From: a virus | Reading direction: 5' to 3' (one strand) | Virus record (IMG/VR): IMGVR_UViG_3300035698_025207 | Coordinates: 1 to 50,026 of that record | DNA length: 50,026 nt | Part shown: in pieces, positions 2,630-48,968 of the stretch | Layout of the letters: every line of letters begins with the position of its first letter | Position numbering within the stretch: position 1 is the stretch's first letter | Translations under genes and position numbers: made by a program | The notes under the pieces: generated by a model | The model's input: the letters and a program-made list of their open reading frames with translations, nothing else | What the model was told of the DNA's origin: nothing | The model's database searches: none

Positions 2630-4273
2630 CTATCCGTTCCATTTTTTGCTTCCTCGATATTGTATCTTTTTCAGAAACCTATATATCCTTAGTTTATGAG
2701 CCCAATAAAGCAAGAATGTTTTCAACAAATCCTTCATCCAGCATTTTATGTACAATCTCAATCGACCTGACCTGATAACAGTTCTCCAATACGACTTCTG
2801 AAAAGGCCACAGACACCACATCCTCTCAAACATAGGAGTTGCATGAAAATGACGATTCCACTTATCCCAAAGTTTCTCCAGATCAATTTTATGTTCGCTC
2901 AATCGAAAACGTTCGATAGGATTGAGGCGATTGTTTATGAGCAAAGAATATTCATCTTTATCAAGTTTTGGTTCACAATACTTTTCATAAATCTTTGTGC
3001 CAGGATATGGGGTTGTTACTCCGAATATAACTCCCGCTGTCGGTTTGATCTCCTCAAGGAACTTATGGGTTGCTTTCAAGTCCTCTTCGGTCTCCCCGGG
3101 CAAATTCAACAACATAGTCGCAAACGATCTTATCTTATACTTTCTGCACCACTCGAATACCTGTCTTGTTTGATCAAGCCTTATCTTCTTATTTACATTC
3201 CATAACAATCTTTCAACCCCTGTCTCGACACCTATGTCTAATTGGATACATCCTGTTTCCTTTAATCCTCTTATCATTTCCTCTGTTGCCGTATCTGCTC
3301 TTGTCTGGCAGGCATAAGGAGTGACTTCTTTCGGCTTGTTCCAATTTTTATAACTTCCAGGTTCAGCATATCCAGCTCTCATTCCCTTCATTTCGGGTTC
3401 CCAATCCAAACACATCTTTGCTTCAAACCAATTACGCATCCACTTCTTTGACATCCCAAACATATCGTCAAACAAATAAAAGAAATCAATATTATAGTGA
3501 AATTTCAAATACAAAATCTCATTAACAACATCTCCAACCGGCCTTAGTCTTGCCGCCTTGCCTTTGTTTGCCTTCCAAACAGCATTAGCGCAACAAAAGT
3601 CACAATTAAAAGGACATCCCCTGCCAGCAAATACACAAACCATTGACGTATAAATTCTTCGGATAATAAGTTTCTGAGGGCGAAGGTAATAAACCATATC
3701 CACCAGATCATAAGCAGGCATCGACAATGTTTCAAGACCCATAAATTGCCTTTGTTCAGTTTTGATAAATTTCCCTTCCTTATAATACCCATGATAATAA
3801 TCCCCTTCTTCTTGCCAAAATGCTATTCCTTTTATTTCATGCAAATTAGAAAAAACAACATTATTTCCTTGATATAATTCCCAGCAAGTTTCTTCCCCTT
3901 CACCCATAACAGCTACATCAAAGGGTGATCCTTCGTAGATAAAATCCTCAGGACAAATTGTGGCATGTGCATTTCCGACAAGTAACAACGAATTTGGTAA
4001 TATATTCTTAACAAAGTTACCAAGCTCCATAACATTAGAATAATCGGAATGAAAAGAAGCCAACCCAACAAAAAGGGATGTTTTTCCCTCAATCTTAGAA
4101 GCAATTTCTCTATAGTGTCTTTTGATTTCATTTACTGTATCACCTCCCTTTACATCTATAATATCAACATTCAATCCTTTCTTTCTTAGATATGCCGCCA
4201 GATACAAAAAATAATATGGAGGGTGAGGATTTCTTGCATTAGTAGGACTTGTTATGAACAGAAAATCAAGCAT
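2630..4273 (-). CDS. B12-binding-domain radical SAM protein (547 aa)
   Basis: The start ATG at 4273 follows AAGGAGAAAAA. Residues 1-140 form a Rossmann-like cobalamin-binding domain (ITSPTNARNPHPPYYFLYLA, then a conserved VMGEGEET). Residues C220, C224, C227 (GRGCPFNCDFCC) are the [4Fe-4S]/SAM cluster motif, and LPGETEED near residue 395 and TPYPGT near 420 are typical of the barrel. About 100 basic, aromatic-rich residues at the C-terminus could touch membranes. Family members carry out methylations or C-C bond chemistry on lipids, sugars or peptides; the substrate here is unknown. The glycan-island context suggests a sugar or lipid. Confidence 0.88.
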   Translation of the reverse strand: MLDFLFITSPTNARNPHPPYYFLYLAAYLRKKGLNVDIIDVKGGDTVNEIKRHYREIASKIEGKTSLFVGLASFHSDYSNVMELGNFVKNILPNSLLLVGNAHATICPEDFIYEGSPFDVAVMGEGEETCWELYQGNNVVFSNLHEIKGIAFWQEEGDYYHGYYKEGKFIKTEQRQFMGLETLSMPAYDLVDMVYYLRPQKLIIRRIYTSMVCVFAGRGCPFNCDFCCANAVWKANKGKAARLRPVGDVVNEILYLKFHYNIDFFYLFDDMFGMSKKWMRNWFEAKMCLDWEPEMKGMRAGYAEPGSYKNWNKPKEVTPYACQTRADTATEEMIRGLKETGCIQLDIGVETGVERLLWNVNKKIRLDQTRQVFEWCRKYKIRSFATMLLNLPGETEEDLKATHKFLEEIKPTAGVIFGVTTPYPGTKIYEKYCEPKLDKDEYSLLINNRLNPIERFRLSEHKIDLEKLWDKWNRHFHATPMFERMWCLWPFQKSYWRTVIRSGRLRLYIKCWMKDLLKTFLLYWAHKLRIYRFLKKIQYRGSKKWNG

Positions 4274-38781: not shown

Positions 38782-41700
38782 TTATTTCAACATCTCCAGT
38801 TTATTAACAAAGTTTTCTATTCCTTCCACAAACTTCCTCTTGTTCCCAGGATTATGTTTCACCGACGCCGGATGCATACACCAACACATCCACAGTCCTA
38901 ACTTTTCATTCCATTCAGTTTTTCCGCTCATATCCGTTATGCCTGAATCCTTATCCGTAAATGCCTTGACTCCGGTATTCCCAAACATAAGGGCAAGCCG
39001 ACAATCAATCTTATCCAACTCCTCATGCAACCAAGGCAAACAGACTTTGATATGAACCTTAGTCGGAGTCTTGATCTTGCGACCAGGATAACACTTGCAT
39101 ACGTTTGTTACATGAAAAAATGATCTCTTATATCCGTATCCCGATAAAGTATCCCACAACAATTCACCAGCAGGAGCCTCCTCATAAAATCCTCTGCCTT
39201 CCCTATCTTCCTGCGGCCCTGGCCCTTCTCCAATTATAGCCACATTATAAATCCCTTGTGACGGAAGAACCGGCTTTCTGCATTCCATCTTCAATTCACA
39301 TTTCTCACAATCCAAAACTTTCTTATTCAAAAATCTTCTCCTTCTAATAACAGGTTTTGGAATTGTATTAATCCTATCATCAAGAGAAAGGTAATACTGC
39401 AAATCAGAGTCGGAAAAATCAAATCCCAAAAGAGAATAAAGATTCGGATATAAATCCCTCTTGTCTCCGGACAAACTGAATGAAAATGACTCCTGAGCTT
39501 CGCTTAAATCAAACTCATTGCCATAGGAACCGATCTGCCTGAGCAACTTGTCCAGGGCGCTCCCTGCCTTCGTCACAGGCTCTATATCATCAGTATCAAA
39601 GAAACCTATCTGTTTTCTTTTTATCGTTTTCTTTTGTGAACATTGAATCGCGGTCTTGTTTCCTATCCCCTTAACTTCAATAAATGGAATATGTAATTTG
39701 TTGTCTTTAGCAACCCACTTATGCGAATCAGATATCCCAACCTTGGGCGGAGTCAGTTCAAATCCCAACTTGATAACCGCCCCTATCAATTCGTTCTTGT
39801 CTTCTTGCGTTCCATAAGTCAAATGGGCACAGATAAATTCCAGGGGATAATAAAACTTGAACCAGGAAGTCCAATATGCCAACAAGGAATACTCAATAGA
39901 ATGGGCTTGATTAAATCCGTAACTTGCCCACTTCTGAAGGCCTTCCCAAAACTCTTCTGCCTCCTGTTTGTTCATTGTCTTGTTTTTTAGACATCCCTTT
40001 AAAAACATATCCCAATATTTCTTGAATCCTTCAACATCCCTTTTCTTTGCAATCACCTTGCGAACTTTATCCGATACGGAATAAGACAGTCCTGCAACCT
40101 CAGAAATAACCTTCATTACCTGTTCTTGAAAAACTAAAATACCATAAGTATCCTTTGTAATCTCCTCATATATCGGATGCTTCTTTTTCCATTTAGCTCC
40201 TTTCTTTCTTTTAATATAATCCACTGTCATTCCCGAGTCATAAGGCCCTGGCCTAACAAGAGCTATGATCACAGCAATATCCTCAAACTTCTCAATCTTA
40301 ATTTCCTTAGCAAGTTGGGTCGTGGGGGGAGCGGACAATTGAAATGTCCCAAAAGTATTCCCTTTATTAATTTCCGCAAACACCTTTTTATCATCAAGAG
40401 GAATATCCTGAAAATAAGCCTTGGAGATTTCCTTGTCTAAGAAATGATTTTGCTGAATCAATCTCAAGGTTTCATTTAAAACCGTCAAGGTATTCAGGCC
40501 AAGGATATCAAGTTTCATAAGTCCGACATATTCGGCATCCTCCATATCCCAATTCGCCATAACACGGCCTTTGCGCATACAAAGATTGCCCCTGTCCCCT
40601 TGTCTAAGATCATCCGCTGATATAACAACAGCGGCGGCATGCTGACCACTATTTCTCACCTGTCCTTCCAATTTAATCGCCAATTCTGTAACTTCGGAGT
40701 ATTTTCTTTCAAAAAATTTTCCTTCTTCTGTTTCCTTAGAAAATAAAGAAATAAAACTTTCATTTCTATTCCGTTCTTCCGTCTTTGCAGTAATATTTAT
40801 TATCTTTGCAAAAGCATCCACATGTAAATATGGCACATCAAATACTCTGGCGACATCTCTTATTACACCTCTCGCCTTCATCTTAGAAAAGGTTGACACA
40901 CCAGAAACATTATTCTTGCCATATTTCTCTCCCAAATATTGCATCACTTTTTCACGATGTATGTCTTCAAAGTCCAAGTCAATATCGGGATAGTCAATCC
41001 TATCCTCCGCAATAAATCTTTCAAACAACAATCCATACTTCAACGGATTGACTTGTGTTATGTTTAACAAATAAGCAACAAGTGACCCACCAACCGATCC
41101 CCGCCCTGGCCCAACCATTATGCCTTGCTTTTTACACCAATCCACAAGATCCTTGACGATCAAAAAATACTTCGCGAATTTCTTTCTTCTAATCAAATCA
41201 AGTTCCAAAGCGACTCTCTCTTTTGCTCCCTGATCTACCAAGAGCCTTTCAGCAAGTAACTTATTCACCTTTCTTTTAAGCAAATCAAAATGCTCCTTTT
41301 CACTCTTGCCAGAAATAACAGGAGGCAATGAGATATCTTGCCTTGGAATCTTGAACTCACAGCATTCCTTAGCAATCTTGATCGTGTTTCTCATTGCCCC
41401 CAGATATTCCTTCCTGTCAAACTGATTCTGTTTTTCAAACGCCTCGATCATCTCATCGGTGGTTCTAAGATGCAAACCCCTAAATCCAAAACTCCAGCGA
41501 TCAGAATCATTCCATTTTGCCTTTCTTTGTATCGCAAGCAAAACCTCCTGCGCCTTCCATTCATCCTCGTTTATGTAATGACAATCATTAGTAGCGACAA
41601 GAGGAATTTTAAAGGCTTTTGTTCTCTCTTCTTTCATTCCAATAATTCGTTCATGTAACTCATATTGCACCTCAATATCATGAGGCATAATCTCAAAATA

Positions 41701-42195
41701 TAATCTACCAGACATTTTGTCACACAATTCATAAAAACAATCTCCACCGCCTCCAGATTGATCCATCAAAAACGATCCCGCACAGGCAGTCATAATAACA
41801 AAGCCGGACAGATCGCAATCCAACAAACTCTGATAATCAATCCTTGGGCGATAATGAAAACCTTCCAAGTTCGCATAGGTCAAGAGTCTGCAAAGCTCCT
41901 TCCATCCGATTTCATTCTTAACAAGAATTGTTATGTGACCTCTTTTCTCTTTCTTTGGTTTGATTTTGGCATCGGGAACGATATATGCTTCACAGCCCAG
42001 GACGGGCATGATGCCTTGATTGGAACATTCTCTTTGAAATTTGAGAAGGCCGTCAATATTTCCGTGGTTGGTTAAGGCAAGATATTCAAAATCTAACTCC
42101 TTGGCTCTGGCAACATAATTCTTTGTTGTGCCGAAGCCATCGAGTTGACTATATTCATCATGAACATGAAGATGGGCAAAATTTGAATTTTTCAA
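38782..42195 (-). CDS. dnaE: DNA polymerase III alpha subunit fused to a family-4-like uracil-DNA glycosylase (1137 aa)
   Basis: The start is TTG at 42195, overlapping the upstream stop (TTGA) and preceded by AGAAAGGA. The PHP domain begins HLHVHDEYS (8-16); GPGRGSVGGSL (362-372) and PDIDLDF (403-409) are polymerase motifs. The OB/tau-binding end typical of DnaE is missing. From about 955 a UDG4-like domain follows: C963-x2-C966, GEGPG (989-993), C1035, C1052 and HPAS (H1108). It copies DNA and may excise or sense uracil ahead. Confidence 0.88.
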   Translation of the reverse strand: MKNSNFAHLHVHDEYSQLDGFGTTKNYVARAKELDFEYLALTNHGNIDGLLKFQRECSNQGIMPVLGCEAYIVPDAKIKPKKEKRGHITILVKNEIGWKELCRLLTYANLEGFHYRPRIDYQSLLDCDLSGFVIMTACAGSFLMDQSGGGGDCFYELCDKMSGRLYFEIMPHDIEVQYELHERIIGMKEERTKAFKIPLVATNDCHYINEDEWKAQEVLLAIQRKAKWNDSDRWSFGFRGLHLRTTDEMIEAFEKQNQFDRKEYLGAMRNTIKIAKECCEFKIPRQDISLPPVISGKSEKEHFDLLKRKVNKLLAERLLVDQGAKERVALELDLIRRKKFAKYFLIVKDLVDWCKKQGIMVGPGRGSVGGSLVAYLLNITQVNPLKYGLLFERFIAEDRIDYPDIDLDFEDIHREKVMQYLGEKYGKNNVSGVSTFSKMKARGVIRDVARVFDVPYLHVDAFAKIINITAKTEERNRNESFISLFSKETEEGKFFERKYSEVTELAIKLEGQVRNSGQHAAAVVISADDLRQGDRGNLCMRKGRVMANWDMEDAEYVGLMKLDILGLNTLTVLNETLRLIQQNHFLDKEISKAYFQDIPLDDKKVFAEINKGNTFGTFQLSAPPTTQLAKEIKIEKFEDIAVIIALVRPGPYDSGMTVDYIKRKKGAKWKKKHPIYEEITKDTYGILVFQEQVMKVISEVAGLSYSVSDKVRKVIAKKRDVEGFKKYWDMFLKGCLKNKTMNKQEAEEFWEGLQKWASYGFNQAHSIEYSLLAYWTSWFKFYYPLEFICAHLTYGTQEDKNELIGAVIKLGFELTPPKVGISDSHKWVAKDNKLHIPFIEVKGIGNKTAIQCSQKKTIKRKQIGFFDTDDIEPVTKAGSALDKLLRQIGSYGNEFDLSEAQESFSFSLSGDKRDLYPNLYSLLGFDFSDSDLQYYLSLDDRINTIPKPVIRRRRFLNKKVLDCEKCELKMECRKPVLPSQGIYNVAIIGEGPGPQEDREGRGFYEEAPAGELLWDTLSGYGYKRSFFHVTNVCKCYPGRKIKTPTKVHIKVCLPWLHEELDKIDCRLALMFGNTGVKAFTDKDSGITDMSGKTEWNEKLGLWMCWCMHPASVKHNPGNKRKFVEGIENFVNKLEMLK

Positions 42196-42348
42196 GCTGA
42201 ATCCTTTCTACGAAATATCTCCATTACAATTATTGCTTGTTTTCCATAAAAAAAAGAAATCAATCGAAATACCCCCCCCTACTCGAATGATTCTCTTTTC
42301 TCCTTGTTTCTTATCTCCTCCTGGTTCTCCGGCAAAGTAAATTTTCAT
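42192..42348 (-). pseudogene. Frameshifted MKIYFAG-family ORF, copy d (G8 tract)
   Basis: ATG at 42348 overlaps the dnaN stop. Translation reads MKIYFAGEPGGDKK, then hits a G8 run (42279-42272) and goes out of frame. Removing one base restores VGGVFRLISFFYGK and a 51-aa product whose stop overlaps the dnaE TTG. The restored length equals copy a. In the present frame it ends at 46 residues (42208). It may be phase variable, a programmed frameshift, decay, or a homopolymer sequencing error. Confidence 0.65.
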
Positions 42349-43340
42349 TTAACCGCCAAGGAAACAACATGCTGAAAATCATCGCCTTCAAACAAAAGAG
42401 CCCTTTCGCCAATGGTCACTTCTTTGAGTCGATCCAAAATCTCCTTCAAAAAGACTGGATGAATATATAGTTTAATTTCGGGGCCAGGATATCTGATTCG
42501 ATGAGTCTCTTCTATATCGCCAAGAGGGCCTTGTCCTTTGCAAATCAAAACAGACTTTTTAAGAATCAAAGAAATCCTCAGATCCTGTTCAAACTCAGTT
42601 TTAGCTAAAATCTCTGCCCTATCAATAGAACTCATAAGTCCAGCCGGAAATTTAATCCTATCTCCTTCCACCTTCATAAATTCCTCAACATCGGGATACT
42701 CAACATTCATAACCCGAGTACTAAAAACGGTCTCCTCTTTATTTGTAAAATGAAGCCATTCTTTTTGAAGACAATACTTAGTCGGATTATAATTAACAAG
42801 ATGAATAGCCGCACTCCCCGGCAAAAGAAAATCTTTTTTAACACGTCCATTCATTATTCGTCTTGTAATTCTATATTTATCAGTAGAAATAACCCTATCC
42901 TTCACAATATTAAGATTGGTTAAATCCGGTCGGGTCATATCCTTACTCACGGAAAATAGACAAAATTTAACCGCCTCGGAAAAGTTGCTTGGTAAAGGAC
43001 TCCATTGAAATTTTCCTGAGATAAGAGGAAGGTCATGTTGTTGAACAATATTAATTCGCGCTGTACTCTTTCTCCCTTTGATAACAAACTTATCGTCTTC
43101 TACTTCAATATCCAATTCCTCATCTGTCAATTTATTAACCAGAGCAAAGAATTCATTTGCGCTTATCGCCCCTATAAGGCCAGTTTCCATCTTTTGTAAA
43201 ATTGAAATTTGATCATTATAGGTTTGGATAGTATTGTCACTGAAGATAAAATGAGTTGTAAATTCTATAATCTCTTTATTCGCCAATCCTGGTTTAACTT
43301 TAACCAAGGCATCCACTAATTCTTGTCTATTGATTTGCAT
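42345..43340 (-). CDS. dnaN: DNA sliding clamp, DnaN/beta-like (331 aa)
   Basis: The pattern of three repeated clamp-like domains is visible: IGAISANEFFALVNKL near 56, STARINIVQQHDLPLI near 91, and the C-terminal block IRYPGPEIKLYIHPVFLKEI near 285. Length is close to cellular beta (about 366) but slightly short. It encircles DNA and tethers the polymerase encoded downstream. The start follows AGGAGGAATC. A TATAAT box lies about 30 bases upstream. Confidence 0.8.
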   Translation of the reverse strand: MQINRQELVDALVKVKPGLANKEIIEFTTHFIFSDNTIQTYNDQISILQKMETGLIGAISANEFFALVNKLTDEELDIEVEDDKFVIKGRKSTARINIVQQHDLPLISGKFQWSPLPSNFSEAVKFCLFSVSKDMTRPDLTNLNIVKDRVISTDKYRITRRIMNGRVKKDFLLPGSAAIHLVNYNPTKYCLQKEWLHFTNKEETVFSTRVMNVEYPDVEEFMKVEGDRIKFPAGLMSSIDRAEILAKTEFEQDLRISLILKKSVLICKGQGPLGDIEETHRIRYPGPEIKLYIHPVFLKEILDRLKEVTIGERALLFEGDDFQHVVSLAVK

Positions 43341-43502
43341 GATTCCTCCTGTTTGATTTTTTTAATCCACATTATAAATGATTGCTTGTGAAAAAATAAC
43401 TCTTCAAAAATATAATAAAAAGAAAGAAGCCTTTTATCTGTTTTATTTTGGAGAATTACCTCTCTCTCTAATTCCAATGGTTCCAGCGAAGTAAATTTTC
43501 AT
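43316..43502 (-). pseudogene. Frameshifted MKIYFAG-family ORF, copy c
   Basis: ATG at 43502 overlaps copy b's stop. It reads MKIYFAGTIGIRERGNSPK and stops after 19 residues. Shifting by +1 around a GAGAGAGAGG run gives LEREVILQNKTDKRLLSFYY, the family's conserved tail, and an end at 43316 inside dnaN. Its total is again one base more than a multiple of three. There is no G8 run here. Confidence 0.5.
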
Positions 43503-43679
43503 TTTATTTGTTTTCTTTGTTCCAAAATAGCACACATTGTATTTAAAATCTTATTCCTACCAGCTATAAAATCATAAAATGATACCAAACGATTTGCCCC
43601 CCCCAGTTAATTTTTGTATTTCCTGTTCTCTTCCTTTTATATTCATTATAGAATATCCACTTGCAAAATATATTTTCAT
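43499..43679 (-). pseudogene. Frameshifted MKIYFAG-family ORF, copy b (G8 tract)
   Basis: ATG at 43679 overlaps copy a's stop (ATGA). The frame reads MKIYFASGYSIMNIKG and runs to a G8 tract (43604-43597), after which it stops at 35 residues. With one G fewer the protein continues as LTGGANRLVSFYDFIAG to 59 residues, and its stop overlaps copy c's start. Copy b therefore fits the gene order only if the G run is seven or is slipped. Confidence 0.65.
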
Positions 43680-43831
43680 TTTCTTTTGGCCATATAATCT
43701 CTAATCTCTTTATCAACATTTTCTCTCTTATTCAAAAAATAATATGAAAGCAATCTATTATTTGCCCCCGTTTTATTTAATACTTCTTCCTGGCTCTTCT
43801 CTTCTAACCAAGTCGCAAGAATTATTTTCAT
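43676..43831 (-). CDS. Intact MKIYFAG-family short protein, copy a (51 aa)
   Basis: ATG at 43831 overlaps the DpdA-core stop (ATGA). Residues 20-34 (KTGANNRLLSYYFLN) carry the family motif that also appears in copies b, c and d. In my recollection of DpdA-like phage proteins a similar segment precedes the LFLDSGAF core. A separate N-terminal module acting with the core is therefore possible. Length is 51 residues, equal to restored copy d. Confidence 0.6.
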   Translation of the reverse strand: MKIILATWLEEKSQEEVLNKTGANNRLLSYYFLNKRENVDKEIRDYMAKRK

Positions 43832-44757
43832 ATCTCAAATCCTCCAACTTGTTTCCCTTTAAAAGCCCAAGGCCACTCCGGCATCGACTTTTCCAGATCA
43901 AGAAAATAAATGATATTCAATTCATCTCTTTGTTTATAATCATTACTAAGTCCTGACTCAATTACAATCTCAACCACCTTATCTTTTGACCAACCAAAAG
44001 TAACCCGACCATCTTTCATACCATGAATTCCTCTTTGTCCATCTGCATCTTGTTTACCAAACCATCTCTCTCCTTCCTTAAGTTTATAATTTTCATCTAC
44101 CTTCTTTAATTCTGACTTACCTAACTTATATCCTTTATCATGAAAATACTGAAGAATAACTTCCTGTTGTTTTGGAGAAAAAGTATTGAAATGTTTGGTG
44201 GCCTCCTTTTGAGAAGGAGATTTATTAGAAACCGTTACTTTCCAGGAATCCTCGTCGTAAATCCATTTACCTTGTTTATATCTCGGAACATAAACAGATC
44301 CCATTCGACTTGTCATCACCCAGGAAGTGCTATCAACAGAATACCAAGGATAACGAAGCAGAAGTTTAAGGGAGGTCAGGCCAAAGCCATGTATTTTTAT
44401 TTCTGTTGGAATATAATTCGAGAATAAAGGATCAAGCCATTTTGCAAGATCTTTTGTCATTATCGGAACCATTCCTCCTAACGCAATATAGCTATACTTA
44501 TCAAGATAATATTGGAAGTATTTAATATCTTCTCCATAATGGAAACAAGGCAATGGATTGAGCCCTGCCTTCTCCATTATCTTTTGATTCTCAAGAGTTT
44601 GTTTTGCATTTCCAATAGCATCCAAATTTGCATATATATCCAGATATTGTTCATGCTCTTTTATAAAAGAAATATAATCTTGGATATCAATTCGAACCTT
44701 TTTTGACCAGGCTGAGAAGGCACCCGAATCTAAAAATAATGATATTTTATTTTTCAT
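43828..44757 (-). CDS. DpdA-like DNA 7-deazaguanine transglycosylase core (309 aa)
   Basis: The start reads straight into LFLDSGAFSAWSKK, with D10 the likely TGT-type active-site Asp. ALGGMVP near 92, HGFGLTS near 123 and SVDSTSW near 140 follow. Phage proteins with this SGAFSAW core are DpdA-like enzymes that swap guanine in DNA for preQ0 or related bases. The usual segment before LFLDSGAF is absent; a similar segment is encoded as a separate gene just downstream. It sits with QueC, QueD, QueE and FolE. Confidence 0.78.
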   Translation of the reverse strand: MKNKISLFLDSGAFSAWSKKVRIDIQDYISFIKEHEQYLDIYANLDAIGNAKQTLENQKIMEKAGLNPLPCFHYGEDIKYFQYYLDKYSYIALGGMVPIMTKDLAKWLDPLFSNYIPTEIKIHGFGLTSLKLLLRYPWYSVDSTSWVMTSRMGSVYVPRYKQGKWIYDEDSWKVTVSNKSPSQKEATKHFNTFSPKQQEVILQYFHDKGYKLGKSELKKVDENYKLKEGERWFGKQDADGQRGIHGMKDGRVTFGWSKDKVVEIVIESGLSNDYKQRDELNIIYFLDLEKSMPEWPWAFKGKQVGGFEI

Positions 44758-45647
44758 TTTATCAACCTCATTAACTCACTTCTGGCTTCCGCCCCTCGAT
44801 TATCATTTTGTAAAAACACCCCTCTCATACAACTTGTAACCATAACAGAATTTTGTTTTTCAATACCTCTCATTCTCATACAAAGATGTTCGGCTTCAAT
44901 AATACAAGCCGCTCCAATGGGCTCAAGAAATTTCATCAATACATCTGTAATTTGAACCGTCAATCTTTCTTGAATCTGAAGCCGGCGAGAATAAATCTCC
45001 ATCAATCGAGCCAGTTTAGAAACCCCTATCACCTCCTTATCGGGGATATAAGCAATATGAGCCTTGCCAATAAACGGCAACATGTGATGCTCGCACATGC
45101 TATAAAGCTCGATATCCTTCAAAAGGACAATTTGATCATACCCGTCGCTATCAAAAACTTTAATTATATCTTCTGGTTTTTGATCATAACCTGAAAATAA
45201 ATATTCATAACTTTCAATTACTCTCTTTGGGGTTTCTTGTAATCCTTGTCTATTCGGATCTTCTCCAATAGATTCTATAATACGAGTAATCGCATCTTGA
45301 GCAGGAGCTTCATTTATCATAGTTTCCCAGGGAAATTCCAACCATTCGCCTTGTTTTGCTTGGTACAAAGCGATAAAATGATATCCTTGTTGAATATATC
45401 TTTCTTTCGTTTTACCTGAATCAATAATATCATCAATAATTAAAACTTCTTCTTTCGCGATTCTATCAAGACAAGTAAGTATTTTTAATGAAAGCCGTTG
45501 GGCAAACATTATTGAAATCGAAATTCCTCCTCTCGGAACCCCATACACATACTTCCACAAAGAAGAATTATTTAAATGATTATCCTTGATTATCAAACTT
45601 ACTTGATATTCAATATCTTGCCAAGTCAATTTACGAATATTCGACAT
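44754..45647 (-). CDS. folE: Phosphoribosyltransferase-GTP cyclohydrolase I fusion (297 aa)
   Basis: Residues 1-110 are a type I phosphoribosyltransferase: VPRGG (37-41) and the PRPP loop VLIIDDIIDSGKT (68-80). Residues from about 115 are FolE: IIESIGEDPNRQGLQETPKR near 123, SMCEHHMLPF near 187 with a zinc Cys/His, and LCMRMRGIEKQNSVMVTS near 258. FolE makes dihydroneopterin triphosphate, the first preQ0 precursor. The PRT part may act in purine or deazapurine salvage. Confidence 0.85.
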   Translation of the reverse strand: MSNIRKLTWQDIEYQVSLIIKDNHLNNSSLWKYVYGVPRGGISISIMFAQRLSLKILTCLDRIAKEEVLIIDDIIDSGKTKERYIQQGYHFIALYQAKQGEWLEFPWETMINEAPAQDAITRIIESIGEDPNRQGLQETPKRVIESYEYLFSGYDQKPEDIIKVFDSDGYDQIVLLKDIELYSMCEHHMLPFIGKAHIAYIPDKEVIGVSKLARLMEIYSRRLQIQERLTVQITDVLMKFLEPIGAACIIEAEHLCMRMRGIEKQNSVMVTSCMRGVFLQNDNRGAEARSELMRLIK

Positions 45648-46320
45648 TATTCAATCTCCTTAATAATGGATCTTTAATTCCCACTTCCTTAAACCCTTTC
45701 GCCCTCAACTTACAGGCGGGACATTCTCCGCAGGGTGGAACCTTGCCTTCATAACAAGTATGACTATAAGCAAGCGCCCTACTACATCCTGGCAAGGATA
45801 AAGCCAATTTAATAGTCTCTGCCTTTGTTAACCACATCAATGGGGTATGAATTGTAAAATCATAATCCATTGCCAACGATAGAGTAATCTGAAGGGCTTT
45901 AATAGTGTTATCACGACAATCAGGATATCCACTAAAATCCGTTTGGCCCACCCCTGTAACAATATCATGAATCCCTTTCTCATAAGCAATTGCTGCCGCC
46001 ACAGACAAAAAGAAAACATTCCTACCTGGAACAAATGAAGCTGGCAACTTATCAGACAAAGAATGAGAAGCTGAAATATCGCCAAAACCAACAAGTGCAG
46101 AATTTCCTAACTGAGAAATAAAATCTAATTTCAATTCTCTATAATCTGCCATCTTTGCCATCTGAAATATTTTTCTCGCTGCCAGACATTCAACCTCATG
46201 CCTCTGCCCATACATAATATTAAGCACAAAAATAGGCCCAAATTTCCGCTTTGCCCAATATAAACATGTGGTGGAATCTTGTCCTCCAGAGAGGAGGACA
46301 AGACAAGATCTCTTATTCAT
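45631..46320 (-). CDS. queC: QueC, preQ0 synthase (229 aa)
   Basis: The PP-loop LSGGQDST (10-17) binds ATP. HTCYEGKVPPCGECPACK near 186-203 holds four zinc cysteines. Length is usual. It turns CDG into preQ0 with ammonia and ATP. The start overlaps the DUF6884 stop (ATGA), and the stop lies inside the fusion gene by 17 bases. Confidence 0.92.
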   Translation of the reverse strand: MNKRSCLVLLSGGQDSTTCLYWAKRKFGPIFVLNIMYGQRHEVECLAARKIFQMAKMADYRELKLDFISQLGNSALVGFGDISASHSLSDKLPASFVPGRNVFFLSVAAAIAYEKGIHDIVTGVGQTDFSGYPDCRDNTIKALQITLSLAMDYDFTIHTPLMWLTKAETIKLALSLPGCSRALAYSHTCYEGKVPPCGECPACKLRAKGFKEVGIKDPLLRRLNNVEYS

Positions 46321-46730
46321 ATTTCAAATCCCTTCCCTTTATTTTTCTGATCATTAAACCATTTTAATTGTTGCCCTAAAGATAAACCTAAAAGAGGGCG
46401 ATAACCCTTTATAAATTCACAATATCTATCATCGGCATAAATATCGGGATAAAAAATATTTCTCTCTTTTAATTGTTGATTAACTTTCAACCCCCATTCT
46501 TTTCTCTGTATAAAAAACATATTATTTAAAGTTTGATCATAAGGATCAATTTCGGTATCAATATCCAATAATCCATATTTAGCTGACAATATATATATAT
46601 TGTCATACTCTTTAGAACAAAACTGAAAGGCTTTGCAAAATAATGCTCCTTGATACATCTCCTTTGCAGAACATTTTCGCAAAGCCTTCGTCTTTGAACA
46701 AGAAATTAAAGCTGTTTTCTTATTTACCAT
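46317..46730 (-). CDS. DUF6884 protein beside the queuosine genes (137 aa)
   Basis: ATG at 46730 is chosen over a TTG two codons upstream. CSKTKALRKC near 11, LYILSAKYGL-type block near 45-54 (IYILSAKYGLLD) and IDPYDQTL near 61-68 match DUF6884 as I recall it. Relatives resemble the C-terminal domain of archaeal TGT/ArcS and often neighbour deazaguanine genes. A role in base insertion or further modification is likely. Confidence 0.72.
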   Translation of the reverse strand: MVNKKTALISCSKTKALRKCSAKEMYQGALFCKAFQFCSKEYDNIYILSAKYGLLDIDTEIDPYDQTLNNMFFIQRKEWGLKVNQQLKERNIFYPDIYADDRYCEFIKGYRPLLGLSLGQQLKWFNDQKNKGKGFEI

Positions 46731-47244
46731 TAGCAATAGCCGGAAGATTTTTTTTGTTTTTCCACTGATTAATCCAAGATCGAATTGTATTGATCTTCAC
46801 ACCCTCTTTAATCTTCTTATGCAATTTTTCCACATTTTCTTCACCATCTTTCCACATTAAATAAATCCGAGCCTTATTACTATCGGAAAAACCTTTCTTC
46901 TTCTCCCCATTGACTTTCTTCATTACCTTCGCCTTGCCCTTCGCCTCAGCGGCCTTCTTAGCTACGGCCTTCGTATCTTTCTTCTCTTCCTGACCAGGCA
47001 CATCAATCCCTATCGCCTTCAGGGTAGCCACCGTCTTATCGGTCAACTTATCCTGAGGTTCCAGTTCCCCTGCCGCATCCTCAAGCTCCCCAAGCAAATC
47101 AATTTCCCTGGTCTTGGAATTCGTAGGCAGGGCAGGGTCAAGATCCAATAATTTGTTCAGTTCCTCTGCCACAGCGATCAAATCCTTCACTGTCACGCCA
47201 TTGTCCTTTTTCTTGCTCTCCTCTTTCTTTTTTGCCTTTGTCAT
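46720..47244 (-). CDS. Lysine-rich protein with C-terminal HTH (174 aa)
   Basis: The start follows AAAAGGAGAAAAGAA. Residues 15-75 are acidic helical, 85-115 are Lys/Ala-rich and disordered, and 120-168 contain a helix-turn-helix (ARIYLMWKDGEENVEKLHKK, then NTIRSWINQWK). This makes it a probable DNA-binding regulator of the module. Promoter P2 lies 65-98 bases upstream. Confidence 0.65.
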   Translation of the reverse strand: MTKAKKKEESKKKDNGVTVKDLIAVAEELNKLLDLDPALPTNSKTREIDLLGELEDAAGELEPQDKLTDKTVATLKAIGIDVPGQEEKKDTKAVAKKAAEAKGKAKVMKKVNGEKKKGFSDSNKARIYLMWKDGEENVEKLHKKIKEGVKINTIRSWINQWKNKKNLPAIANGK

Positions 47245-47888: not shown

Positions 47889-48566
47889 TTAAACTCCTCT
47901 CTCATCTGGACTCCAGATAATTTTATGCAATTGAAGATTTACCGTCACATCCCAAAACCTATCGTTTTTAATCATCAAGATTAATTCAACGGGATCAAAC
48001 ATGCCAAAAGCAGGACTCAAAGCCATTCTTGCTCGACATCCTTTATCTCTCAACAATCCAATCGTTTCCTTTGCCAAAACATATTCCTGCGGGCTTTGCA
48101 AAACAAATTTAATCCAATCATTCTCATTAAGAAAAAGATAATTTCTTGTGATCATCTTTTCCCAACACCATAATTTATAATCAACCGCCCAACAAAATTC
48201 CTCAGGGCATCCGTCTATATCCAACTCAAATACAAATGCGGGAGGTATAGCAATACTGCCATTAGTCTCAACAGTAATTTTATATCCTTTACTATAAAGA
48301 TTTCTTATAAGCAATAACAACTCATCTTTCTGCAATAAAGGTTCTCCGCCCGTGATAGTAACTTTTTTACAACCAATTTCCTGAACCTTATCAAGAACCT
48401 CCTCTACCGAATATTCCTTGCCCTGCCAATTTTGCTGAGCATATTGAGTATCGCAATAAGGACATTTTAAATTACAACCGGCAAAACGAATAAAAGTTGA
48501 CATTGTACCCTGATGAAATCGACTAACTTCGCCGTCTATACTTGTGAAAATTTCGTTGATTATCAT
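47889..48566 (-). CDS. queE: QueE, 7-carboxy-7-deazaguanine synthase (225 aa)
   Basis: Radical SAM enzyme with the three cysteines in GCNLKCPYC (C31, C35, C38), the GGEP motif (TGGEPLLQ near 73) and VETNGS near 100. It turns CPH4 into CDG. The start follows AAAGGAGATAGATA. Length fits the family. Confidence 0.92.
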   Translation of the reverse strand: MIINEIFTSIDGEVSRFHQGTMSTFIRFAGCNLKCPYCDTQYAQQNWQGKEYSVEEVLDKVQEIGCKKVTITGGEPLLQKDELLLLIRNLYSKGYKITVETNGSIAIPPAFVFELDIDGCPEEFCWAVDYKLWCWEKMITRNYLFLNENDWIKFVLQSPQEYVLAKETIGLLRDKGCRARMALSPAFGMFDPVELILMIKNDRFWDVTVNLQLHKIIWSPDERGV

Positions 48567-48596: not shown

Positions 48597-48968
48597 TCAA
48601 TATACTTCCGCATAGGAAGTCGATGTTTCCCAAAGTCGAATCTTAACCAGATAAACCTTATCAGATACTCTCCTCCTCAATGCATCTGATATTAAGATCG
48701 AGGCGGAGTCGGCTAAGCTCTCCACCGTAGGAACAAAATCCACGACATCATTAAGATAAGAATGATCCCACTTATCAAGAATATTTTTTTGAACAACCTT
48801 TTTCAGATCGCCAAAATCCATAATCATACTCTGATCATTCAACCATTTTGCCCCAACAGTTACCTCCAACCTGTACGTATGGCCGTGCAAATTTTTACAT
48901 GCTCCTGGATGATCAGGTAACTTATGCGCCGCCTCAAACTCAAAAACTTTTGTGATTGTCGTTTCCAT
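48597..48968 (-). CDS. queD: QueD, 6-carboxytetrahydropterin synthase (123 aa)
   Basis: Zinc histidines H15, H28 and H30 (AAHKL and LHGH) with catalytic C24 match QueD. Length is typical. It converts dihydroneopterin triphosphate to CPH4, between FolE and QueE. The start follows GAAAGGAGAGAAAA. Confidence 0.9.
   Translation of the reverse strand: METTITKVFEFEAAHKLPDHPGACKNLHGHTYRLEVTVGAKWLNDQSMIMDFGDLKKVVQKNILDKWDHSYLNDVVDFVPTVESLADSASILISDALRRRVSDKVYLVKIRLWETSTSYAEVY

Follow-up and report, generated by a model that had tools for sequence, protein, structure and literature searches.

DpdA is a phage enzyme that exchanges guanine for 7-deazaguanine in DNA; it folds as a TGT-like (beta-alpha)8 barrel and is thought to hide phage DNA from restriction. 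The window analysed here is a whole stretch of viral DNA of 50,026 nucleotides (positions 1 to 50,026 of IMG/VR record IMGVR_UViG_3300035698_025207), in which a dpdA-like gene appears to begin partway into this fold and is followed by four copies of a segment resembling the part that it lacks. This raises the question of how an enzyme would be made from such a locus, and why the missing part should be present several times, mostly in broken reading frames. The best reading of the evidence, and one that we consider probable, is that DpdA is split in this virus and that its exchangeable N-terminal modules undergo slippage-driven phase variation.

The DpdA core and its missing N-terminal quarter

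On the minus strand the gene order is folE, dpdA core, copies a, b and c, the sliding clamp gene, copy d and dnaE (Table 1). The core starts at MKNKISLFLDSGAFSAW, within the ATGA overlap with folE, and copy a is in turn coupled to the core by an ATGA overlap. The neighbours of dpdA include genes for 7-deazaguanine synthesis, namely the adjoining GTP cyclohydrolase, assigned by Pfam, and queC-, queE- and queD-like ORFs at 45631-46320, 47889-48566 and 48597-48968, assigned by eye. A gene for a DUF6884 protein (46317-46736, minus strand; E 2e-32) lies among them, and the N-terminal part of the folE product is phosphoribosyltransferase-like (phrog_8995, E 5.6e-7, residues 3-96). The DNA polymerase III alpha ORF (38782-42195, minus strand) has a C-terminal domain of the uracil-DNA-glycosylase superfamily (PF03167, residues 984-1121, E 1.1e-19).

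Table 1. Features of the dpdA locus in the window, in minus-strand gene order
Feature	Position	Strand	Remarks
folE (context)	44754..45647	-	GTP cyclohydrolase I; PF01227 E 3.6e-72; ATGA overlap with dpdA
DpdA core, 309 aa	43828..44757	-	predicted (beta-alpha)3 to 8 of TGT-like barrel, without N-terminal quarter; phrog_887 match
Copy a, intact 51-aa module, TW type	43676..43831	-	ORF; predicted beta-alpha-beta-alpha
Copy b	43499..43679	-	first half from 43679; second half, other frame, stop at 43499
G8 tract of copy b	43597..43604	-	reads C8 on + strand
Copy c	43316..43502	-	first half from 43502; second half, other frame, stop at 43316
(AG)5 tract of copy c	43460..43469	-	reads (CT)5 on + strand
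Sliding clamp, dnaN (context)	42345..43340	-	phrog_947 E 2e-28
Copy d, between dnaN and dnaE	42192..42348	-	first half from 42348; second half, other frame, stop at 42192
G8 tract of copy d	42272..42279	-	reads C8 on + strand
dnaE	38782..42195	-	TTGA overlap with second-half frame of copy d

A profile search of the core, which the initial annotation had proposed as a check, gave a match to phrog_887 with E 8.5e-55 over residues 5-214. We take phrog_887 to be phage DpdA, the 7-deazaguanine DNA transglycosylase of phages such as 9g and CAjan, and the DSGAF and SVDSTSW motifs of the core are presumably the two catalytic Asp sites of TGT. The match runs only from profile position 56 onward; in a relative with a fused N-terminus (L008) and in the DpdA of an isolate (L161) it runs from position 10. 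The N-terminal ~55 residues of phrog_887 are absent from the core chain and are encoded as a separate gene. This agrees with the initial annotation, which had the chain begin directly at LFLDSGAFSAW and had described a further segment as preceding this motif in DpdA-like phage proteins; that segment is real, making up the phrog_887 positions before 56 and being fused in all five isolate DpdAs that were opened. The detached segment had been placed in a short downstream ORF with ATGA coupling, and copy a is indeed such an ORF, intact and 51 residues long. Copies b, c and d, also described as further copies, are present but are not intact ORFs, each being split over two frames. Judged by its sequence, the 309-residue ORF encodes a phage DpdA (a TGT-fold DNA transglycosylase) reduced to its catalytic core, minus beta1-alpha1-beta2-alpha2, and copies a-d are versions of the missing quarter of this TIM barrel.

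Other family searches gave little. The bacterial DpdA family of NCBIfam (NF041059) scored the core at 26.5 bits, below its curated cut-off of 200, and Pfam returned no family for the core or for copies a, b or d; six further proteins searched against Pfam gave a sub-threshold DUF4030 hit, in one module, as their sole match. Copy a matches phrog_27551 weakly (E 0.093), and searching the PDB by sequence with the core alignment yielded 0 matches.

The fold was examined by AF2 in the fused relative L008, whose model, from 22 natural rows, has a pLDDT of 89.8 and a pTM of 0.88. Elements E2-5, H12-19, E24-28, H29-33 and H39-48 precede E53-56, which is beta3 and carries LFLDSG. In VIA the best matches, which align from model residue 1, are TGT (7nq4; Z 18.3, rmsd 3.9, 264 residues) and, tied with it, DpdA (7ui4; Z 18.2, rmsd 3.4, 263 residues). 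Foldseek on the PDB placed other TIM barrels among the best 50 matches (best E 2.2e-3). The TGT-like barrel is thus seen in the fused relative rather than in the window core itself. The model of copy a, from 28 rows, is of modest confidence (pLDDT 74.2, pTM 0.44) and has the same order of elements as the N-terminus of L008 (E2-6, H12-18, E25-29, H30-34, H39-49). By homology to the L008 model, the module is predicted to be (beta-alpha)1-2 and the window core (beta-alpha)3-8.

Fused and separate modules in related viruses

Twelve viral loci were found with the window core as query, and the best 80 of at least 566 relatives were used from a core profile; nearly all relatives are uncultured viral contigs. 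An anchor pair was defined as M[K..].Y.A followed by RL.SYY at a distance of 45-110 bases. In the best 80 loci and the window region, with near-duplicates kept in, 130 such pairs lie on the dpdA strand and none on the opposite one, and this strand bias indicates that the copies are not due to chance. A frame-blind DNA pattern for the module, independent of dpdA, was found in 43 viral records, and 39 of these contain a dpdA core, part of the matches being the gene's own fused N-terminus. The records without a core are L109, L115, L119 and L129; the L115 contig ends within its module array, and L121, identical to it in the overlap, has the core. In 20 whole records the pattern gave 36 matches and the reversed control 0, and where a core is known the matches lie within ~4 kb of it. 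Five matches fell in genome contigs, of which L144, L145 and L146 were confirmed as modules, each with a dpdA core; in L143 and L147 the module could not be confirmed, and neither genome yielded a dpdA core match.

In the isolate phages that were opened (Shewanella S0112, Alteromonas R7M, E. coli SHIN8, Stenotrophomonas ply2008005c and Microcystis Me-ZS1) the N-terminal part is fused in five of five, and all share the folE-dpdA-clamp-polymerase order. The gap between dpdA and the clamp contains no gene in three of them and one small gene, with a translation that is not module-like, in the other two. Scanning these five regions for anchor pairs gave none, although this is weak evidence, as the scan also misses their own fused N-terminus (motif LESYHYI). 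A tblastn search of 50,697 isolate phage records with copy a and one TPG-type module gave nothing below E 2. The initial annotation had named full-length DpdA lacking any such copies as evidence against a split; the isolates opened fit this description, but their module is fused, which leaves the split standing.

Fused and separate states were counted in 69 non-redundant loci with a recognised core (L085, L098, L102, L105 and L106, having no recognised core, were left out); a module was called open when an HMM match covered most of it in one frame, whatever its start codon. The fused module is open in 23 loci, only its second half is present in frame with the core in 10, and none is detected in 36. 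The same split, which the initial annotation had suggested looking for in related phages, is found there: 42 of the 46 loci without an open fused module, the window included, have at least one open separate module by HMM, the exceptions being L003, L058, L060 and L091. A module starts no more than 150 bases past the dpdA stop in 43 of 66 cases. Between the fused-open state and the others there are at least 14 changes on a quick core tree of the 69 loci, or at least 8 by starred branches. The core's own ATG has a Shine-Dalgarno-like site ahead of it in 30 of 68 cases, compared with 34 of 564 internal Met codons, which makes core-only translation plausible even where a module is fused. Having its own start codon, the core may work alone.

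Two other peculiarities of dpdA were seen among the relatives. An in-frame insert of ~300 residues splits the core just before SVDSTSW in L127 (29-2104, 692 aa), in L116 (3-1910, 636 aa) and in an 847-aa frame of the L110 record. The insert begins with Cys and ends with Asn before Ser, and is intein-like and situated at the catalytic site; Pfam found nothing in L116 and, in L127, a LAGLIDADG_3 match below threshold. In L132 (= L025) the intact dpdA core is preceded at 2777-3411 by another one that is broken, with core HMM matches in two short frames (E 1.3e-17 and 6.4e-33).

Relatives of copy a were aligned from 27 loci, and its group, comprising 35 modules that begin M....(A/S)T(W/T/L), contains 4 with a repeat tract and 2 that are broken. 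This TW type also adjoins genes that already have a fused module (e.g. in L007, L008, L009, L055 and L073), and open separate modules occur in 18 of the 23 loci where the fused module is open, so the separate modules are not merely replacements. Both observations would fit phase-variable small proteins that descend from the DpdA N-terminus and have a job of their own outside the enzyme, for example in anti-restriction or regulation. We regard this as unlikely, given that the modules are tied to dpdA (a core in 39 of the 43 records found by pattern), that an open separate module accompanies 42 of 46 unfused cores, and that the same module type, tract included, is fused in some loci and separate in others.

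Repeat tracts and reading frames of the modules

In copies b, c and d of the window the motifs MKIYFA(G/S) and RL(V/L/I)SF stand in different frames with a repeat tract between them (G8, (AG)5 and G8, respectively), and the tracts of copies b and d are the only C or G runs of at least 8 in the 50,026 bases. In copies b and d the second-half frame ends in an overlap with the next gene (ATGA with copy c and TTGA with dnaE, respectively). Read across both frames, the composite thus has a geometry that is normal for an operon, as expected if it is a real gene. The idea of a split transglycosylase in the initial annotation holds as regards a core without its module and a module that is separate and multiplied, but the frame breaks and repeat tracts, which point to on/off switching, had been overlooked. 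The state that we propose for the window is a ON and b, c and d OFF.

For the family as a whole, a tract was defined as G or C of at least 7, GA type of at least 8 bases, and similar, between the anchors. Among 145 distinct modules from all loci, 58 bear a tract (30 open, 28 broken) and 87 are tract-free (78 open, 9 broken); the Fisher p for broken versus tract is 4.8e-7, which is too small because close relatives were counted apart. The tract-bearing modules divide into 30 in frame, 20 shifted by one and 8 shifted by two, and the in-frame share (30 of 58) exceeds one third (binomial p 0.003). In 74 non-redundant loci, seven near-duplicates having been dropped, tracts are ~36 times denser in modules than outside (48 per 11,220 bases versus 70 per 586,854), with some of the 'outside' tracts sitting in modules seen by profile but missed by the motif scan. 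Of the RER/ERE runs, 28 of 47 in modules versus 8 of 77 in long ORFs are encoded purely by GA repeats, and 17 of ~36 dinucleotide tract cases are out of frame. Plain duplication without switching was set aside on these tract statistics and frame states.

The frame differs by tract length alone among orthologues in four module groups of relatives, whose compared members have equal length before the tract and are collinear after it (L036 and the TPGTRE module of L031 lie outside this comparison). In L030, L031, L035 and L053, related phages that are mostly 80-92% identical in aligned blocks around dpdA, the MKIYLAGNTPDR.. module is in frame 0 with C8, frame 2 with C7 and frame 1 with C9. The TAPGHEGG module is in frame with G8 in four relatives and shifted with G7 (L115) and with G9 (L036); the VPGGGSPG module is in frame with G9 and shifted with G8 in two; and the TPGTRE module, which is fused to the core, is shifted in two different ways by GA tracts of 17 and 19. 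The NGAMP module varies in its tract as well, but a compensating base downstream of the tract leaves the offset the same in three members. L115 and L121 align over 3,734 columns with 0 mismatches and 1 gap, which is G7 versus G8 in the TAPGHEGG tract; they are the only nearly identical tract-bearing pair among the loci compared, and have different metagenome numbers yet may come from overlapping data. At the level of assembled contigs, the one at which it is seen, phase variation of the modules is well supported.

The pN/pS values of the N and C halves are 0.04 and 0.20 over pairs in which one or both members are shifted, and 0.03 and 0.22 over the six pairs in which both are. TPGTRE, whose C half runs into the core, is left out of the six-pair figures, and all of these are summary values, as the pairs share members. 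By this measure both halves of shifted modules are under purifying selection. Conserved halves would also be found under programmed recoding, in which the two frames would be joined at the tracts with a fixed efficiency, by frameshifting of the ribosome or slippage of RNA polymerase, and shifted modules would always be made at a low level; G or C runs of at least 8 could slip in transcription. We think recoding quite improbable, however, because the offset is not conserved, the same module having offsets 0, 1 and 2 in close relatives with some in frame, and because the GA tracts behave alike, though they would be unusual as slippery sites.

Low pN/pS in both halves is also a poor fit to simple decay, by which copies b, c and d would be dead copies of the DpdA N-terminus kept by chance, with only copy a mattering. 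What decay does account for is that tract-free copies are broken too (9 of 87), and that copy b of L001 and L002 (~98.9% identical) is out of frame in both and differs between them by 29 bases, a difference that looks more like decay than simple slippage. No near relative of the window's own copies b-d with a different tract length was found among the loci compared. As an explanation of copies b-d, decay nevertheless appears very unlikely in view of the values of 0.03 and 0.22 where both members are shifted, the ~36-fold tract enrichment, the repeat-favouring choice of codons, and the excess of in-frame tracts over one third. It is hardly credible that sequencing or assembly error at homopolymers fakes frameshifts in intact modules, since this would leave the clustering of tracts in modules, the dinucleotide tracts and the codon bias toward repeats unexplained, even though homopolymer length is error-prone on some platforms and L115 and L121 are possibly two assemblies of overlapping data.

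A possible switch in viral DNA modification

A split DpdA with phase-variable modules might work as follows. The dpdA gene would yield only (beta-alpha)3 to 8, and the missing (beta-alpha)1-2 would be supplied by small genes of the same operon, many of which contain a tract of one repeated base or dinucleotide between their two strands. Slipped-strand mispairing, which we infer to be the cause of the tract-length changes, would alter a tract by one unit and so join or separate the halves (ON or OFF), thus deciding which modules get made. A module that is ON would dock on the core next to its first catalytic strand and so complete the barrel, in trans or, if fused, in cis. It would then set activity or target preference, or might affect the substrate base, giving several versions of the enzyme per population. 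The copy a type, mostly tract-free, may be the default partner, with b-d as alternatives. It is the anatomy of the locus that points to docking in trans and to an effect on modification. Taken together, this suggests that the virus may change how its own DNA is marked.

A more ambitious version, which we offer as a conjecture rather than as the likely outcome, is a combinatorial viral contingency system. Here a three-quarter TIM barrel would be completed by whichever slippage-switched quarter-barrel module is in frame, so that the enzymes in a population would differ in target preference or strength and DNA marks would be varied ahead of host restriction.

Phase variation by slippage is a familiar bacterial mechanism that often serves in defence against phages; in this locus it would be on the phage side, in DpdA. 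The likeness to bacterial systems, including DNA methyltransferases (phasevarions), lies in the repeat tract within the gene, the frame set by tract length, the several loci and the theme of DNA modification. The differences are that the tracts are in a phage genome and that what varies is one quarter of an enzyme fold, from small genes, rather than a whole gene. Type I restriction systems with HsdS shuffling similarly combine one catalytic body with alternative partner parts, whereas the parts here would be switched by tracts instead of recombined and an effect on target choice is only proposed. Engineered half and quarter TIM barrels share division of the barrel at (beta-alpha)2, and the case in the window differs in being natural and in having several interchangeable versions. 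The nearest known relative is phage DpdA itself (phrog_887), which the window locus resembles in core sequence, in the folE-dpdA-clamp-polymerase order of the isolates and in the TGT/DpdA fold of the fused relative; the isolates keep the N-terminal quarter fused (five of five), whereas in the window it is detached, multiplied and interrupted by tracts.

A literature search, PMC6884629 included, found no report of a switchable split DpdA, most subscription papers and bioRxiv lying outside its scope. If the reading is true, the locus would encode a natural TIM barrel built from a three-quarter core and interchangeable quarter units, and the modules, being small and testable, would help in finding out what determines DpdA activity and target preference.

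The separate modules also touch the replication genes of the window. The second-half frame of copy c overlaps the start of the clamp gene (43316-43340) and that of copy d the start of dnaE (42192-42195), so the state of these modules might affect translation of the replication genes by coupling.
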